From Halobacterium litoreum (GTDB lineage Archaea; Halobacteriota; Halobacteria; Halobacteriales; Halobacteriaceae), in NCBI RefSeq assembly GCF_021233415.1, contig NZ_CP089466.1, positions 2,046,001 through 2,110,000 on the forward strand: a DNA stretch of 64,000 bases, written 5' to 3'. Position numbers and translations under genes: made by a program. Below are positions 54,364 through 61,060 of the stretch, one piece after another; positions within the stretch are counted from its first letter, which is position 1, and the number at the start of each line of letters is the position of its first letter. The notes below the pieces were generated by a model. It had not been told where the DNA came from, made no database searches, and worked only from the letters and a program-made list of their open reading frames with translations.

Positions 54364-55359
54364 TTACTCGCCGACGCGGGGGTCGAGGTAGCCGTACAGC
54401 AGGTCCTGAGCGAGACTGCCGACGACGCCGATGAGCGCGAACACGGTCGCCGCGCCGACGACGAGGCGGAAGTCCCGCGTGTAGACGGCGACCTGCAGGT
54501 AGGCGGCGACGCCGGGGATGCGGAAGACGGTCTCGACGACGAACGCGCCGAGCGCCAGCACCGACATCAACTCCGCGAACGACACCGACAGCAGCGGGAG
54601 CGCCGCGTTCCGCAGCGCGTGCCGGGCGTTCACCGTCTGGTTTGCGCCCTTCGCGTTGAGCATCTTCGACGTGTCCGACCCCTTGTACGAGAGGGCGTTG
54701 TTCCGGGTGTGCCGGAACAGCCCCGAGACGAGGCCGACCGCGAGGACGGCGGCGGGCAGGAGGTACTTCCAGCCGACCGACCGCCACGGCTCGGTGCCGC
54801 GGAACGACGGACTCCCGCGGAAGAGGAACGGGTGCGTGTTCCAGACGGGGTCGGCGAGCCACGGGTACTCGCCCGCGAGCGCTTTCACGACGACGATGCC
54901 GAGGACGATGCTCGGGACGCCGAGGCCGACGTAGGCGGCAATGCGGAGCGTCCAGTCGCTGACGCGGCCGCGGTACGCGCTCGCGAGGCCGCCGAGGACG
55001 CCGACGGTGTACGCGATGACGACGCCCGGGACGACGTACGCGAGCGTCCGCGGGAGCGTCTCCGCGAGGATGTCGGCGACCGGGCGGTCGAACTCGTAGG
55101 AAAATCCCCAGTCGAGCGTGACGACGTCGGTCATGTACCGGACGTACTGCTCGGCGAGCGTGCCGGTCGTCCCGTGGGCTCGCCGGTACTGGCGGCGAAT
55201 CTCCTGTGCCGCCTGGCTGTCGGGGTCGAGGCCGACGAGGCGCGCGGTGAGGTCGGTGTTCGGTGCGTACCGCACGACGAGGAACGTCAACGAGACCACG
55301 AGGAGCGCGGTGAACGCGGCGAACGCGGTGCGGCGGGCGGCGTACGTCAGCCACGACAT
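54364..55359 (-). CDS. ABC transporter permease, DppB-like (B1)
   Basis: The 331-residue B-type permease of the dipeptide/oligopeptide/nickel family. After an N-terminal helix (AFTALLVVSLTFLVVRYAP), the segment LDWGFSYEFDRPVADILAETLPRTLAYV is the family hallmark; the cytoplasmic EAA-type loop is MLNAKGANQTVNARHALRNA. The C-terminus QDLLYGYLDPRVGE is shared by B2 and B3. The ATG at 55359 overlaps the TGA of a 22-residue leader ORF (TGATG). It lies on the strand opposite to the ATPases. Confidence 0.87.
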   Translation of the reverse strand: MSWLTYAARRTAFAAFTALLVVSLTFLVVRYAPNTDLTARLVGLDPDSQAAQEIRRQYRRAHGTTGTLAEQYVRYMTDVVTLDWGFSYEFDRPVADILAETLPRTLAYVVPGVVIAYTVGVLGGLASAYRGRVSDWTLRIAAYVGLGVPSIVLGIVVVKALAGEYPWLADPVWNTHPFLFRGSPSFRGTEPWRSVGWKYLLPAAVLAVGLVSGLFRHTRNNALSYKGSDTSKMLNAKGANQTVNARHALRNAALPLLSVSFAELMSVLALGAFVVETVFRIPGVAAYLQVAVYTRDFRLVVGAATVFALIGVVGSLAQDLLYGYLDPRVGE

Positions 55360-55427
55360 CAGACCACCCCGCGGCCGGCGAACGGGCGGGACTGCCTGCT
55401 GGGAGCGGTCGGCGAACTGGAGGGCAT
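55359..55427 (-). CDS. Leader ORF upstream of DppB-like B1, 22 residues
   Basis: An ATG-initiated short frame that begins MPSSSPTAPS and ends FAGRGVV. Its TGA overlaps the B1 start codon (TGATG). The TATA-like ATTTATTTC lies about 30 nt upstream of this ATG and almost 100 nt from the permease ATG, so the leaderless message would start at the leader ORF. The first residues recall the MPSS/MPST starts of the two DppC-like permeases. Translation is inferred, not proven. Confidence 0.55.
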   Translation of the reverse strand: MPSSSPTAPSRQSRPFAGRGVV

Positions 55428-55451
55428 CGTCCCCGAACGTTGAACGTATCT

Positions 55452-55463
55452 GAAATAAATCTT
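55452..55463 (-). promoter_or_regulatory. Promoter of leader ORF and permease B1
   Basis: On the minus strand, AAGATTTATTTC is a good TATA element centred about 30 nt upstream of the leader ORF ATG at 55427. Confidence 0.6.
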
Positions 55464-55471
55464 GGGGCGCG

Positions 55472-56464
55472 TTAACGCTCGTCGACGCCGGGGTCGAGGT
55501 AGCCGTACAGGAGGTCCTGGAGGAAGTTCCCGCCGATGCCGATGAACACCAACACCATCGTCGTCCCGACGACGAGGGGCACGTCCTGGTTCTCGATGGC
55601 GAACAGGCTAATCGTCCCGAGTCCGGGGATGGCGAACACGCCCTCGATGATGTAGACGTTCAACATCAGGATGCCGAGCACCTCGACGAACGACAGCGTG
55701 AGGATGGGGATGGCGGCGTTCCGGAGGACGTGTCGCGCGACCCGGAGTCTGCTCGCGCCCTTCGCTTCGAGGAGTTTCACGAACTGCGCGCGCTCGTACT
55801 CCAGGGCCTCCGCGCGAGAGTGCTGGAGGAGGCCGGCGACCAGCCCCAGCGACAACACGAGCGACGGCCACACGTACCGCAGCGGGTGCGAGAACGCCCA
55901 CACCTCGCTCACGCGCCGCGACGCGCTGATGACGACGCGCGCCGGCGACAGCCACGGCAGCGTCCACGGGTGGACGACGTCGAGGTAGTGTACCACCCAG
56001 AACGCGGGCAACCCCATCGCGAGGTACGCGACGACGCGGGACCCGCGGTCGAGGAGGCCGTCGCGGCCGAACGCGCCGGCGACGCCGAACGCCGCGCCGA
56101 GCACGAACGACAGCAGGACGCCCGGCACGACGTACGCGAGCGTGTACGGGAGTCGGTCTGCGACGACGTCCACGACGGGTCGGTCGAACTCGTAGGACTG
56201 CCCCCAGTCGAGCGTCGCGACGCCCGCGACGTAGTCGACGTACCGCTCGACGAGGCCGCCGCGACCGCCGTGTTCCGCGTAGTACTGCGCCTCGATTCGG
56301 TCCAGTTGGGCCGGCGTCGCGCCGCTGCGCTCGGCGCCCGCCAGTTCCGCGCCGAGTTCCGGGTTCGGGACGGAGGCGACGACGCCGAAGGTCAACGAGA
56401 CGACGAGGAACGCCGCGAACACGGCGAACGCGCCGCGGCGGGCGACGAACGCCGCGTAGCTCAC
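55472..56464 (-). CDS. ABC transporter permease, DppB-like (B2)
   Basis: A 330-residue B-type permease starting with GTG (VSYAAFVARRGAF). It shares LDWGQSYEFDRPVVDVVADRLPYTLAYVVPG and the EAA loop LLEAKGASRLRVARHVLRNAA with B1 and B3, and ends QDLLYGYLDPGVDER. It is divergent from the C1 permease gene across a 132-bp region. The GTG start overlaps the TGA of a 13-residue leader ORF (GTGA). Confidence 0.87.
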   Translation of the reverse strand: MSYAAFVARRGAFAVFAAFLVVSLTFGVVASVPNPELGAELAGAERSGATPAQLDRIEAQYYAEHGGRGGLVERYVDYVAGVATLDWGQSYEFDRPVVDVVADRLPYTLAYVVPGVLLSFVLGAAFGVAGAFGRDGLLDRGSRVVAYLAMGLPAFWVVHYLDVVHPWTLPWLSPARVVISASRRVSEVWAFSHPLRYVWPSLVLSLGLVAGLLQHSRAEALEYERAQFVKLLEAKGASRLRVARHVLRNAAIPILTLSFVEVLGILMLNVYIIEGVFAIPGLGTISLFAIENQDVPLVVGTTMVLVFIGIGGNFLQDLLYGYLDPGVDER

Positions 56465-56502
56465 GCTACACCACCGCGCGGGAGAGTCCGTTGGAGGGCC
56501 AT
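56461..56502 (-). CDS. Leader ORF upstream of DppB-like B2, 13 residues
   Basis: A short frame MALQRTLPRGGVA starting at ATG 56502; its TGA overlaps the permease GTG start (GTGA). A minus-strand CTTATC element lies about 32 nt upstream of this ATG. Its position relative to the promoter and the permease matches the leader ORFs before B1 and B3, although its sequence does not resemble theirs. Confidence 0.5.
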   Translation of the reverse strand: MALQRTLPRGGVA

Positions 56503-56530
56503 CGACTGCCGGAGTGTCGACAGCCCGACT

Positions 56531-56538
56531 GATAAGCG
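56531..56538 (-). promoter_or_regulatory. Promoter of leader ORF and permease B2
   Basis: Minus-strand CGCTTATC is the only TATA-like element in the divergent region for this direction. It is centred about 32 nt upstream of the leader ORF ATG. Confidence 0.4.
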
Positions 56539-56562
56539 TTCGGTGTCCGCCAACGCACGCCA

Positions 56563-56571
56563 AAGTATAAC
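56563..56571 (+). promoter_or_regulatory. Promoter of permease C1 (TATA box)
   Basis: AAGTATAAC lies about 29 nt upstream of the C1 ATG, predicting a leaderless transcript; no leader ORF precedes this gene. Confidence 0.6.
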
Positions 56572-56596
56572 CGTCGAGTGTAACACAGTTGTCGCA

Positions 56597-57772
56597 ATGC
56601 CCTCCAGCAGACTCGACGGCGCCGCCTTCACCAGTGTCGACTGGGGAGAAGAAGACGCCTCGCGACGGGTTCGTCCCCGCACCGTCGCGTTCGTCCTCGC
56701 GCTCGCCGGCGTCGCCGCGCTGTTCGTGTACGACAACTGGCTGCACAGCGGACCGCTGTACGGGACGTACTACACGCGCCGCATCGACTGGCTGTTCGCC
56801 GTCTCGTTGGTCGTGTTCGCGCGGTTCGTCGCGCTCCCGCTCGTCCTCGACCGCGGCCGGACGCGGCGGTACTGGCGGCGCGTCCGCGGCGACCCGCTGG
56901 CGATGGCCGCGGTCGGCTACCTCGCCGCGTTCTTCGTCGTCGCGCTCCTCGCACCCGAACTCAGGGGCATCGGTCACGTGAGTTTCCAGCGCCAACTCCA
57001 GCCGCCGGTGTTCTTCAGCGTCCCCGCGGACGCCGTCGACGCCTGTGTCGGCCCCGTTTCGAACGGCCGGTGTCACGGCACGTGGCGCCACCCGCTGGGA
57101 ACGAACGCGCTCGGCATCGACGTGCTCAGCATGCTCGTCTACGGGATGCGCGAGATTCTACAGGTGGCGCTGTCGGCGGCCGTCCTGATGGGGGTCGTCG
57201 CGACCTTCGTCGGCGCGACCGCCGGCTACGTCGGCGGCTGGGTCGACGACGTGCTGATGCGGTACGTCGACGTCCAGCAGACGGTGCCTGCGGTAGTCGT
57301 CTACGTGCTCGTGGCGACGCTCGTCCTCCGGGACAAGGCGCTCATCCTGCTCGCGGTGTTCTTCGGCCTGCTGGACTGGGGCGGTATCGCCCGCCTCGTC
57401 CGCAGCGAGGTCCTGAAGCGCCGCGACGACGGCTACGTGCGCGCCGCCCGCGCGGCGGGCGCCAGCGACTTCCACGTCGTCCGGAAGCACCTCGTGCCGA
57501 ACGCGTCGCCGGCGGTCGCCACCAGCCTCTCGCGTCGCGTGCCGATGCTCGTGTTGACGCAGGTGGGGCTGTCGTTCCTGCTGTTGAGCGAGTCGAACAT
57601 GCGCTCTATCGGCGAACTACTGCGGCGCGGCCTCGCGTCGCGGTACGTGGCCGGCGAGTGGACGGCGAAGTGGTGGGTGGCGGGCGCGGCGGTGCTCGTC
57701 GTCGTGCTCACCGTCGCGGCGTCGAACGTCGCCGGCGACGCGGCGCGGGACGCCCTCGACCCCCACGAGTAG
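56597..57772 (+). CDS. ABC transporter permease, DppC-like (C1)
   Basis: The 391-residue C-type permease of the dipeptide/oligopeptide family. About 100 extra N-terminal residues with two helices precede the usual core. An extracytoplasmic loop with two Cys (C150 and C159) leads into HGTWRHPLGTNALGIDVLS, the family's HPLGTDxxGRD-type entry motif. The EAA-type loop is YVRAARAAGASDFHVVRKHLVPN. It starts MPSSRLDGAAF at ATG 56597 and pairs with one of the B permeases. Confidence 0.87.
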   Translation: MPSSRLDGAAFTSVDWGEEDASRRVRPRTVAFVLALAGVAALFVYDNWLHSGPLYGTYYTRRIDWLFAVSLVVFARFVALPLVLDRGRTRRYWRRVRGDPLAMAAVGYLAAFFVVALLAPELRGIGHVSFQRQLQPPVFFSVPADAVDACVGPVSNGRCHGTWRHPLGTNALGIDVLSMLVYGMREILQVALSAAVLMGVVATFVGATAGYVGGWVDDVLMRYVDVQQTVPAVVVYVLVATLVLRDKALILLAVFFGLLDWGGIARLVRSEVLKRRDDGYVRAARAAGASDFHVVRKHLVPNASPAVATSLSRRVPMLVLTQVGLSFLLLSESNMRSIGELLRRGLASRYVAGEWTAKWWVAGAAVLVVVLTVAASNVAGDAARDALDPHE

Positions 57773-57785
57773 CGCGGAGGTCGCG

Positions 57786-58739
57786 CTATCCGTTGATTCT
57801 GGGGTCGAGGTAGCCGTAGAGGACGTCCTGGAGGAGGTTGCCGAGGATGCCGACGAAGACGAGAATCATCGTGGTGCCGATGATGAGCGGGAGGTCGCGT
57901 TCCCGCACCGCGAACAGACTCGCCCCCGCCAACCCCTCTATCTCCAGAATCTCCTCGATGACGTAGATGTTGAGGACGAGCACGCCGAGGATTTCGGTCA
58001 CCGACAGCGACACGATGGGTATCGACGCGTTCCGCAGCACGTGGCGCGCCACGCGGAGGCGACTCGACCCCTTCGCCTTGAGGAGTTTGGTGAACTCCTT
58101 GCCGGCCTGTTCGAGGCTCGCGATGCGCGCGAACCGAATCTGGCCCGCCAGCAGCGTCGCCGCCACCGTCACCGCCGCCAACACCTGCGGGTGCGGCGAC
58201 ACGACCAGCAGCGTCCCGCCGATGGACTGGATTTTGGCGCCGCCGACGGCGGTGTACCAGACGAGACCGACAAACGCCGGAATCCCGAGCAGCGCGTACG
58301 ACCCGACGCGGAGCACCCAGTCGAACCGCGAGTTCCGGAGCATCGCGGACGCGAGGCCGAACAGGACGCCGAAGGCGACGGCGAGAATCACGCCGGGGAT
58401 GACGTACTCCAGAGTAGTGGGGACGCGAGTTTCGAGGACGGACCACACCGGTTTGCGGTACGCGAACGAGTACCCCCACTCCAGCGTCGTCACGTCCACC
58501 AGCCACCCGACGTACTGGTCGAGCAGCGACGCGTCGAGGCCGCGCGCCTCGAGGTAGCGCTGGCGTATCTGCTCGATTTCCTCGGGTGACGCGCGCTGGA
58601 ACCGCGCGGCCGACGCGAGTTTCGCGCCGAGGTCGACGTTCGGCGTGAACGTGATGAGCGCGAACGTCGCGGTGACCACGAGATACGCCGAGAGCACCGC
58701 GAACGCCACGCGACGCGCCAGATACTGGAGGTAACTCAC
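57786..58739 (-). CDS. ABC transporter permease, DppB-like (B3)
   Basis: A 317-residue B-type permease. It carries TLEWGYSFAYRKPVWSVLETRVPTTLEYVIPGV and the EAA loop LLKAKGSSRLRVARHVLRNA, and ends QDVLYGYLDPRING. It starts at GTG 58739 (VSYLQYLARRVAF), aligned with the start of B2; a TTG ten codons upstream is less likely. The GTG overlaps the TGA of a 20-residue leader ORF. It converges with C1 (13-base gap) and diverges from C2. Confidence 0.86.
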   Translation of the reverse strand: MSYLQYLARRVAFAVLSAYLVVTATFALITFTPNVDLGAKLASAARFQRASPEEIEQIRQRYLEARGLDASLLDQYVGWLVDVTTLEWGYSFAYRKPVWSVLETRVPTTLEYVIPGVILAVAFGVLFGLASAMLRNSRFDWVLRVGSYALLGIPAFVGLVWYTAVGGAKIQSIGGTLLVVSPHPQVLAAVTVAATLLAGQIRFARIASLEQAGKEFTKLLKAKGSSRLRVARHVLRNASIPIVSLSVTEILGVLVLNIYVIEEILEIEGLAGASLFAVRERDLPLIIGTTMILVFVGILGNLLQDVLYGYLDPRING

Positions 58740-58798
58740 GGCCACCACGCGTCGCGCTTCGGTCGACAACTGTACTCGGTGGAGGGCTGTTTCGGCAT
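58736..58798 (-). CDS. Leader ORF upstream of DppB-like B3, 20 residues
   Basis: MPKQPSTEYSCRPKRDAWWP, from ATG 58798, with a TGA overlapping the permease GTG (GTGA). The TATA sequence TTTATAAA is centred about 32 nt upstream of this ATG, while the permease start is about 90 nt from it. Of the three leaders it is the most peptide-like: it has one Cys, several Arg/Lys and two Trp near the end. Confidence 0.55.
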   Translation of the reverse strand: MPKQPSTEYSCRPKRDAWWP

Positions 58799-58826
58799 GT
58801 GTTCCCGCGAGACTCTCTCACAAAGA

Positions 58827-58836
58827 TTTATAAAAA
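58827..58836. promoter_or_regulatory. Bidirectional TATA element between B3 and C2
   Basis: TTTATAAAAA is close to palindromic. It is centred about 34 nt upstream of the C2 ATG on the plus strand and about 32 nt upstream of the B3 leader ORF on the minus strand, so one A/T core could serve both directions. GGCTATAATCG (58839-58849) is an alternative but is closer to C2 than usual. Confidence 0.6.
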
Positions 58837-58864
58837 TTGGCTATAATCGCAGGTACACGCCACG

Positions 58865-60055
58865 ATGCCCTCCACCGAACTCGAGTCGGCCAAATTCACC
58901 AGTATCGACTGGAGCGACGAGTCCGGCGGCTGGCGGTCGGTCCGCTACCGCAGCGTCGGACTCGTCGCCGCGTTGCTCCTCGTCGCCGCCCTGTTCACCT
59001 ACGACTACGTCGCCGCCCCGCGGGAACTGTTCGCGTTCATGGACTGGGACGTCACCCGGATGGACTGGCTGTTCCTCGTCTCGACGGTGCTGTTCGTCCG
59101 GTACGCGCTCGTCCCCCTCGCGGTCAGCCGCGAACGCTCGTCGACGTACGTCCGCGAGTTCGTGCGCCGGCCGGCGGGCGTCCTGAGTCTCGGGTACATC
59201 CTCTTCTTCGGCGTCATGGGGCTCGTCGGTCCCGAGTGGTTCGGGCTGGCCCGCGTCGACTTCTACGCGAAAGTCCAGCCGCCGGTGTTCACGTCGGTGA
59301 ACACCGGGAACATCCGGGCGTACAACTGCGTCGGGAAGGTAGCCGGAAACCAGTGCCACGGGACGTGGCAGTACCCGCTCGGCACCACGCGCGTGGGCGA
59401 GGACGTCGCGAAAGTCATCGTCTACGCCATCCGCATCGGCCTCAAGCTCGCGTTGAGCGCGGCGATGATAATGGTCGTCGTCGCGACCGCCGTCGGCACC
59501 GCCGCCGGCTACTTCGGCGGCTGGGTCGACGACGTGTTGATGCGGTACGTCGACGTCCAGCAGACCGTCCCCGCCATCGTCGTCTACATCATCCTCTCGA
59601 CGATGTACCTCGGGAAGGGGCTGTTCGCGCTCGCGCTCGTCTTCGGCCTGCTCGACTGGGGCGGCATCGCACGCCTCGTCCGCAGTGAAGTCCTCCAGCG
59701 CCGCACCGACGGCTACGTGCGCGCCGCGCAGGCGGCCGGCGCGAGTGACCTCCACGTCGTCCGAAAACACGTCATCCCGAACTCCACGGCGACCATCGTC
59801 ACCGCGCTCACGCGACAGATTCCCCTGCTCATCCTCGCGCAGGTGGCGCTCGCGTACCTGAAACTGAACAGCGTCGCGTTCCGCTCGCTCGGCGAGGTGC
59901 TGATGCGTGGACTGTCTGCGAACCCCGTGCCGTGGCACCAGCGCTGGTGGGTCACCGGCTTCATCACGCTGTTCCTCGTCGTCACCGTCGTGTCGTTCAA
60001 CGTCTTCGGGGACGTGGTTCGTGACGTTCTCGACCCACAGGAGGAGGTGGCGTAG
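58865..60055 (+). CDS. ABC transporter permease, DppC-like (C2)
   Basis: The 396-residue C-type permease has the same build as C1: an extended N-terminus with two helices, a loop with two Cys (C155, C164), then HGTWQYPLGTTRVGEDVAKV and the EAA loop YVRAAQAAGASDLHVVRKHVIPN. It starts MPSTELESAKF at ATG 58865. It is immediately followed by the two ATPase genes (no gap to the first), so C2-D-F is the core operon. Confidence 0.88.
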   Translation: MPSTELESAKFTSIDWSDESGGWRSVRYRSVGLVAALLLVAALFTYDYVAAPRELFAFMDWDVTRMDWLFLVSTVLFVRYALVPLAVSRERSSTYVREFVRRPAGVLSLGYILFFGVMGLVGPEWFGLARVDFYAKVQPPVFTSVNTGNIRAYNCVGKVAGNQCHGTWQYPLGTTRVGEDVAKVIVYAIRIGLKLALSAAMIMVVVATAVGTAAGYFGGWVDDVLMRYVDVQQTVPAIVVYIILSTMYLGKGLFALALVFGLLDWGGIARLVRSEVLQRRTDGYVRAAQAAGASDLHVVRKHVIPNSTATIVTALTRQIPLLILAQVALAYLKLNSVAFRSLGEVLMRGLSANPVPWHQRWWVTGFITLFLVVTVVSFNVFGDVVRDVLDPQEEVA

Positions 60056-61060
60056 ATGCGGGAGCCGCTGCTCTCGGTCCGCGACCTCCACACGCAGTTC
60101 GACACCGACGACGGCACCGTGAAAGCCGTCGACGGCGTCAGTTTCGACGTGGAGCCCGGCGAGACGGTGTGTCTCGTCGGCGAGTCCGGCTCCGGGAAGA
60201 CGGTCGCCTGCGAGTCCATCACGAAGCTCATCCCGACGCCGCCGGGAGAGATTACGGGCGGCGAGGTGCGCTTCGACGGCGAGGACCTCGCCGACCTCTC
60301 CTCGAAGCAACTCCGGCAGTACCGCGGCGGCCGCATCGGCCACGTCTTCCAGAACCCGCAGGGCGCACTCGACCCGGTCTACACCGTCGGCGAGCAGCTC
60401 GTGGAGGCGATTCGCCTCCACCGCGACGTGTCGAAGAAGGCGGCCCGGAAGCGCGCAGTCGAGTTGCTCGACCGCGTCGGCATCGGCGACGTATCGGAGC
60501 GCATCGACGACTACCCCCACCAGTTCTCGGGCGGGATGAAACAGCGCGTCGTCATCGCGATGGCGCTCGCCTGCGACCCCGACCTGCTCATCGCCGACGA
60601 ACCGACCACCGCCCTCGACGTGACCATCCAAGCGCAGGTCTTGCGCCTCCTGAACGAACTGCAGGAGGAACGCGGGATGGCGATGGTGTTCGTCACGCAC
60701 GACCTCGGCGTCGTCGCGGAAATCGCCGACCGCGTCGTGGTGATGTACGCGGGGAAGGTGATGGAGACCGGCGACGTCTACCAGGTGTTCGAGAACCCCT
60801 CGCACCCGTACACGAAGGCGCTGTTGAAGTGCCTGCCCGGGAGAGGGCGCGCGCTCGAAACCATCGGCGGGTCGCTGCCGGACCCGACCGACCCGCCGGA
60901 CGGCTGTCGGTTCCACCCGCGGTGTCCCCACGCCGTCCCGGCGTGCGAGGAGGGCGGCCAGCCCGCCTTCGAGGACGTGGGCGGGAACCACGAGGCGTCC
61001 TGCGTGCTGTACGGCACCGAACACGAGCAACCCGAAGCACTGGAGGCAGACGATGACTGA
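60056..61060 (+). CDS. ABC transporter ATPase, DppD-like
   Basis: The 334-residue ATPase powers the transporter with its partner. Walker A is GESGSGKT, the signature FSGGMKQRVVIAMALA and Walker B LLIADEPTTALDV. The C-terminal oligopeptide-transporter extension carries the Cys-containing CRFHPRCPHAVPACEEG motif. The ATG follows the C2 stop directly. The best-known substrates of the family are di- and oligopeptides and nickel; which applies here is not evident. Confidence 0.92.
   Translation: MREPLLSVRDLHTQFDTDDGTVKAVDGVSFDVEPGETVCLVGESGSGKTVACESITKLIPTPPGEITGGEVRFDGEDLADLSSKQLRQYRGGRIGHVFQNPQGALDPVYTVGEQLVEAIRLHRDVSKKAARKRAVELLDRVGIGDVSERIDDYPHQFSGGMKQRVVIAMALACDPDLLIADEPTTALDVTIQAQVLRLLNELQEERGMAMVFVTHDLGVVAEIADRVVVMYAGKVMETGDVYQVFENPSHPYTKALLKCLPGRGRALETIGGSLPDPTDPPDGCRFHPRCPHAVPACEEGGQPAFEDVGGNHEASCVLYGTEHEQPEALEADDD

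Follow-up and report, generated by a model that had tools for sequence, protein, structure and literature searches.

In a 64,000-nucleotide (nt) stretch of the Halobacterium litoreum genome, referred to here as the window, three genes for DppB/OppB-type permeases of an oligopeptide-type ATP-binding cassette (ABC) transporter (B1, B2 and B3) are each preceded by a short, ATG-started open reading frame (ORF) whose stop codon overlaps the permease start codon. From the sequence comparisons below we consider it highly probable that each of these leaders is a fore-cistron, itself begun in leaderless fashion, that delivers ribosomes to the B permease by termination-reinitiation and so replaces an upstream gene that has been lost. 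The leaders would most likely carry ribosomes to a gene on which these could not begin directly. A sequence-only reading of the window had described ATG leaders of 22, 13 and 20 residues with TGA on the permease starts, and both the coordinates and the peptides proved exact.

Leaders, promoters and Shine-Dalgarno-like sites

The elements concerned are the leaders, the motifs made up of a B recognition element (BRE) and TATA box, and the Shine-Dalgarno (SD)-like sites at the leader ends.

55359-55427, minus strand: B1 leader (fore-cistron), MPSSSPTAPSRQSRPFAGRGVV, 22 codons from ATG, stop on the B1 start as TGATG
56461-56502, minus strand: B2 leader, MALQRTLPRGGVA, 13 codons from ATG, 4-nt overlap GTGA
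58736-58798, minus strand: B3 leader, MPKQPSTEYSCRPKRDAWWP, 20 codons from ATG, 4-nt overlap GTGA
55454-55465, minus strand: BRE/TATA motif CCAAGATTTATT, score 11.1, 38 nt upstream of the B1 leader ATG and 106 nt upstream of the B1 start
56531-56542, minus strand: BRE/TATA motif CGAACGCTTATC, score 11.2, 40 nt upstream of the B2 leader ATG and 78 nt upstream of the B2 start
58829-58840, minus strand: BRE/TATA motif CCAATTTTTATA, score 8.1, 42 nt upstream of the B3 leader ATG and 101 nt upstream of the B3 start
55362-55370, minus strand: SD-like site GGGGTGGTC within the B1 leader end, anti-SD duplex -13.5 kcal/mol
56469-56475, minus strand: SD-like site GGTGGTG within the B2 leader end, anti-SD duplex -9.0 kcal/mol
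58742-58748, minus strand: SD-like site GTGGTGG within the B3 leader end, anti-SD duplex -6.2 kcal/mol

The permease starts at 55359 (B1), 56464 (B2) and 58739 (B3) were also picked by an independent gene caller based on codon statistics. A stop/start overlap, as NTGA or TGATG, is found in 3/3 cases in the window and in 13/13 permeases of the same clade, which come from six Halobacterium genomes and include four from this genome. The junction is an RTGA tetramer in 12 of the 13 and TGATG in B1. The junction reads ATGA or GTGA if the first base of codon 2 is A, and TGATG in B1, where codon 2 is TCG. Another DppB clade has TAATG in its member L124, where codon 2 is TCA, and ATGA in the relatives of L124; a Natronosalvus homologue with TCG as codon 2 again has TGATG and, in the sequence as read by eye, is preceded only by a GTG/TTG-started frame. 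On these comparisons the stop/start overlap looks selected.

Most haloarchaeal genes start without a 5' untranslated region (UTR). The 508 first genes of this genome, and so one species only, served to train a BRE/TATA matrix, whose motif peak fell 36 nt upstream of gene starts, as is expected of leaderless genes. With this matrix the earlier claim that the promoter elements of B1, B2 and B3 lie near the leader ATG and far from the permease was borne out at the distances listed above. Among the 13 permeases of the clade, the best motif lies 37-47 nt from the leader ATG (standard deviation, 2.4) and 78-158 nt from the permease start (standard deviation, 22.5). When promoters were chosen blind to the leaders, the first ATG lying 34 nt or more beyond each promoter was in frame and terminated on the permease start in 13/13, with leaders of 13-39 codons. 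This promoter phase is compatible with a predicted 5' UTR at the leaders that is absent or a few nt long. The C-type permeases lack a leader, and a promoter of their own lies 37-47 nt upstream of the ATG; for C1 and C2, correctly described before as having no leader, the distance from the motif to the permease ATG is 37 and 44 nt.

SD pairing was predicted with a 16S tail sequence that we assumed from general knowledge. The anti-SD energies at the 13 clade starts have a median of -10.05 kcal/mol, all being at -5 or lower, compared with medians of -4.0 for first genes, -8.55 for operon pairs with an ATGA/TGATG overlap and -1.1 for leaderless DppB genes. Haloarchaea use SD motifs for reinitiation (PMC6728339); in Haloferax, translation of the second gene of an overlapping pair is strictly coupled to the first, and reinitiation fell in 6/7 pairs when the SD was removed (PMC6728339). 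De novo initiation in haloarchaea is reported to occur without SD use (PMC6728339, PMC3986360).

That open frames are common in GC-rich DNA had been raised as a caveat, and rightly. In a background of 864 kb of the 2.7-Mb genome, with approximate gene calls and the same 508 first genes, an ATG upstream ORF (uORF) with its stop overlapping the start as NTGA precedes 25 genes, against 20.8 expected from dinucleotide shuffles, so that the overlap alone is weak evidence. For the overlap together with a promoter-phased leader ATG, dinucleotide shuffles gave a per-gene chance of 0.0013 for B1, 0.019 for B2 and 0.026 for B3 (product ~6e-7). Shuffling of the promoter-to-start region put the average per-gene chance at 0.031, or 0.41 genes expected versus 13/13 observed, in a set of paralogues and related species that are not independent of one another. 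Only 17 uORFs in the set of 508 genes are promoter-phased; seven of the 17 end on a start codon, B4 included (its start was called 9 nt early), and four of the seven are B permeases.

According to the mechanism we propose, each B permease would be the second cistron of a two-cistron mRNA. Judging from promoter position, transcription would start 0-6 nt before the leader ATG, and the ribosome, as the biology of the genus suggests, would begin on the leader in leaderless fashion. It would translate 13-22 codons into a peptide without value, terminate at the TGA overlapping the first codon of the permease and reinitiate at that codon, probably aided by the SD-like site in the last codons of the leader. 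The leader would stand in for the upstream gene, usually a binding-protein gene, that would supply ribosomes in an operon. Gene order and promoters suggest that each B heads its own transcript from its own promoter, with B2 and B3 divergent from C, and in the simplest account a B cistron at the transcript head would keep its need for delivered ribosomes, a need met by a minimal cistron. The sequence-only reading had likewise proposed a leaderless start on the leader followed by permease reinitiation, and in this part it is supported by comparison (phase, frame, overlap and SD-like site in 13/13); the attenuator that it attached to this is taken up below.

Relatives and other genes with leaders

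Close relatives had been named as the place where the leader frame and the overlap might be lost; both are kept in 13/13 Halobacterium clade members. The fourth B permease of this genome lies outside the window (G000:C1:323798-324745, L031), is 81% identical to B3 and has a coupled leader, MSPEPSTESDTNRRWSP; no C homologue was found in the 12-kb stretch around it.

A contig scan for relatives returned ten haloarchaeal loci, the remainder being bacterial. Among 60 distant B homologues, for which upstream-gene calls were automatic and approximate, 34 head a transcript and 26 follow a same-strand gene, mostly a binding-protein gene judging from sequence. Counted at a promoter score of at least 5, promoter-phased leaders precede 11/34 of the first-gene homologues versus 1/26 of those that follow a gene, which suggests why the leader exists: that a B permease usually following another gene is now first in its transcript appears, from these sequences, a better-supported reason for the leader than attenuator-like or stoichiometric control. 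Relatives with leaders include Halorarius halobius, Haloarchaeobius iranensis, a Halovenus metagenome-assembled genome and Halovivax. About a dozen of the 34 have a promoter at leaderless distance to B itself, and two distant homologues with such a promoter (L055, L056) have a 4-codon ATG frame (MMER, MVDR) with ATGA on the permease start.

The gene cheF (Pfam E=1.2e-72; G000:C1:1372126-1372992, minus strand; L283-L295) has a leader of 24-25 codons in 13/13 Halobacterium genomes searched, with the promoter 38-40 nt before the leader ATG and an ATGA overlap; most of these leaders also contain an SD-like site. Differences among the cheF leaders amount to 0.36, 0.41 and 0.38 at the three codon positions; an in-frame stop never occurs, and another frame always has a stop. 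As an independent example, cheF supports, at the level of sequence, the existence of a class of such leaders. A hisF leader considered as a second example was rejected and taken as chance, its promoter-phased form not being found in relatives (6 of 13 loci examined).

Several other leaders were seen. In the other DppB clade (L124, L125, L128-L130, L134) they are coupled, 11-12 codons long, join the gene by ATGA (TAATG in L124) and are near-identical in sequence in three species. Three members of another family (L039, L095 and L096, from G031, G068 and G058) have a PST-type leader sequence in frame with the B permease, as if fused. L298 (G000:C1:1690532, minus strand) has a 20-codon MPST leader preceded by a TATA-like motif; this leader stops 2 nt short of a gene whose 515-residue product has a signal like that of twin-arginine translocation (Tat).

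Several points weigh against ribosome delivery by the leaders. Transcripts could start elsewhere, and a permease start bearing an SD might initiate directly. Outside Halobacterium the leader is frequent, not universal; a strong SD is missing from most leaders of the other DppB clade (5/6 at -2.5 to -5.9 kcal/mol), the SD is weak in G010, and paralogues in one genome are not fully independent.

Alternative readings of the leaders

The main function of the leader might instead be structural, translation of it unmasking an SD region held in paired RNA. SD regions are predicted to be mostly paired in many leaders, but the pairing partners vary from leader to leader, no shared RNA structure was found in the leaders, and their folding is no stronger than that of shuffled sequence (z-scores from about -0.3 upward). 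Haloarchaea are, moreover, reported to initiate de novo without SD use (PMC3986360, PMC6728339). We regard unmasking as an improbable main mechanism. Pairing of CCCTCC, a short motif of the leaders described below, with the SD, or a conserved RNA structure, was rejected in the same way, as no consistent pairing was found.

The sequence-only reading had named attenuator-like control as one of two possible outcomes, the other being stoichiometric control. In a peptide-dependent attenuator the leader would sense amino acids or peptides, stall ribosomes and set the level of B. The downstream gene encodes a peptide-type transporter, and P-S-S/T or a close variant occurs in most clade leaders. Against this, no codon runs were found in the clade leaders, and the shared CCCTCC falls in another frame in B2. 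The leader peptides of the Halobacterium clade diverge, the linkage being conserved more than the peptide. Leaders of 13 codons also precede B2 of G003 and G005, and in this B2 trio of equal length, a very small sample, differences were not concentrated in third codon positions, with changes at positions 1 and 2 no fewer than at 3; the same holds for the cheF leaders. Selection on the peptide was rejected for want of a codon-position signal in either set, and the leader peptide appears, from sequence, to have no meaning. No shared hairpins were seen. The absence of a peptide signal and of RNA structure argues against an attenuator as well as against structural unmasking as the main mechanism, and the proposed attenuation, with its peptide not conserved, no codon run and no RNA structure that is shared or above shuffled, is not supported; we judge it very improbable. 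The leaders may still set how much B is made relative to C, D and F.

The three peptides had been called dissimilar, which is true overall but overlooked the CCCTCC(A) that they share and the SD-like site before each permease start. The CCCTCC boxes lie as follows.

55419-55424, minus strand: CCCTCC box, B1 leader
56493-56498, minus strand: CCCTCC box, B2 leader, in a different reading frame
58781-58786, minus strand: CCCTCC box, B3 leader
56600-56605, plus strand: CCCTCC box directly 3' of the C1 start codon
58868-58873, plus strand: CCCTCC box directly 3' of the C2 start codon

CCCTCC(A) occurs in 12/13 clade leaders versus 1.3 expected, in more than one reading frame, and also right after the ATG of the C genes. 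With CCCTCC rare among other leaderless genes (5/150), we rejected it as a general feature of such genes; as a mark of binding-protein genes it was rejected because both SBP_bac_5 genes of the genome begin without it. These counts favor a reading in which the selected feature is a DNA or RNA element 3' of the transcription start, namely the CCCTCC box, with the leader frame secondary. Such an element, however, accounts neither for the frame and the stop/start overlap nor for the TGATG replacement and the SD, and the architecture is also kept in the cheF leaders, where the box is absent. This reading seems to us less probable still than attenuation. The box may be a regulatory site common to the B and C transcripts, and may function alongside reinitiation. 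A broader proposal goes beyond the B permeases: in haloarchaea, leaderless, peptide-free ribosome-delivery cistrons would form a class before transcript-heading genes unable to start directly (B permeases, cheF, other DppB), with CCCTCC acting on leader initiation and co-regulating both permease halves. As a whole we hold this to be unlikely.

Chance, by which GC-rich DNA would have supplied open frames with an accidental NTGA at their end, fits the near-random count of overlap-only uORFs and the hisF look-alike of this genome, whose promoter-phased form is in none of the relatives examined, but it is the least probable reading of all and is ruled out as a full account by the clade count (13/13 against 0.41 expected) and the leader-blind test, with promoter phase and frame kept across leaders of widely differing length and sequence and an SD excess at the permease starts.

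The transporter cluster and known systems

The cluster, in a host genome of 2.7 Mb from the genus Halobacterium, specifies an oligopeptide-type ABC transporter. The genes for its three B-type permeases are on the minus strand; the plus strand carries those for two C-type permeases and, following C2, for two ATPases.

54364-55359, minus strand: B1, DppB/OppB-type ABC permease, 331 residues, Pfam PF00528 (E=3.8e-24)
55472-56464, minus strand: B2, DppB/OppB-type ABC permease, 330 residues, GTG start, Pfam PF00528 (E=2.1e-22)
57786-58739, minus strand: B3, DppB/OppB-type ABC permease, 317 residues, GTG start, Pfam PF00528 and PF19300
56597-57772, plus strand: C1, DppC/OppC-type permease, divergent from B2, own near-leaderless promoter, without leader ORF
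58865-60055, plus strand: C2, DppC/OppC-type permease, divergent from B3, without leader ORF
60056-61060, plus strand: D, oligopeptide-type ABC ATPase, directly 3' of C2, PF00005 and PF08352
61053-62312, plus strand: F, oligopeptide-type ABC ATPase, 8-nt overlap with D, PF00005 and PF08352

A Pfam search gave the expected families for all seven proteins, the BPD_transp_1 domain of the B permeases scoring 78.6-85.9 bits against a curated cut-off of 26.4. B1-B3 fall far below all NCBIfam equivalog cut-offs, and hence no substrate can be assigned. A binding-protein gene is absent from the cluster; of the only two SBP_bac_5 genes in the genome (G000:C1:2405357-2406448 and 2676623-2677873), one adjoins another permease operon and the other could serve the transporter of the cluster.

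This kind of leader is known from mycobacteria, and its archaeal use appears undescribed in the open-licence literature, where we found no archaeal description of such coupled leaders, a weak negative given that scope. The leaders offer a natural example, both conserved and open to test, of how translation can be maintained in a gene that has ceased to follow another. If ribosome delivery is correct, some short upstream ORFs move ribosomes and encode no useful peptide, and archaeal annotation, start-codon prediction and expression vectors would be affected.

In mycobacteria, leaderless small ORFs are joined by RTGA to the next gene, with the linkage conserved and the peptide not (PMC4633059). 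As is proposed here for H. litoreum, a short ORF at a leaderless 5' end has its stop on the next start, and ribosome delivery has been proposed (PMC4633059). The present leaders differ in being archaeal, without homology to the mycobacterial ORFs and fixed in one transporter clade; they also use TGATG besides NTGA and have an SD-like site in every clade member, and their transcript starts are predicted. The overlapping gene pairs of Haloferax volcanii (PMC6728339) share the NTGA/TGATG overlap and the intragenic SD, the coupling in Haloferax having been demonstrated by experiment, but there the upstream partners are annotated genes, whereas here the upstream cistron has 13-39 codons and no detectable peptide constraint. 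Small ORFs before ABC transporter genes, dppA15 for example, are also among the H. volcanii uORFs described in PMC4983044, although the uORFs described there lie in UTRs of 150-250 nt. A synthetic design is also close: the bicistronic construct of Corynebacterium glutamicum, like the leaders described here, combines a leaderless promoter, a short fore-cistron and an SD before the second gene, and in it both the SD and translation of the fore-cistron were required (PMC10367133). That system is engineered and bacterial, whereas the B permease leaders would be a natural version, an archaeal counterpart to synthetic bicistronic designs.

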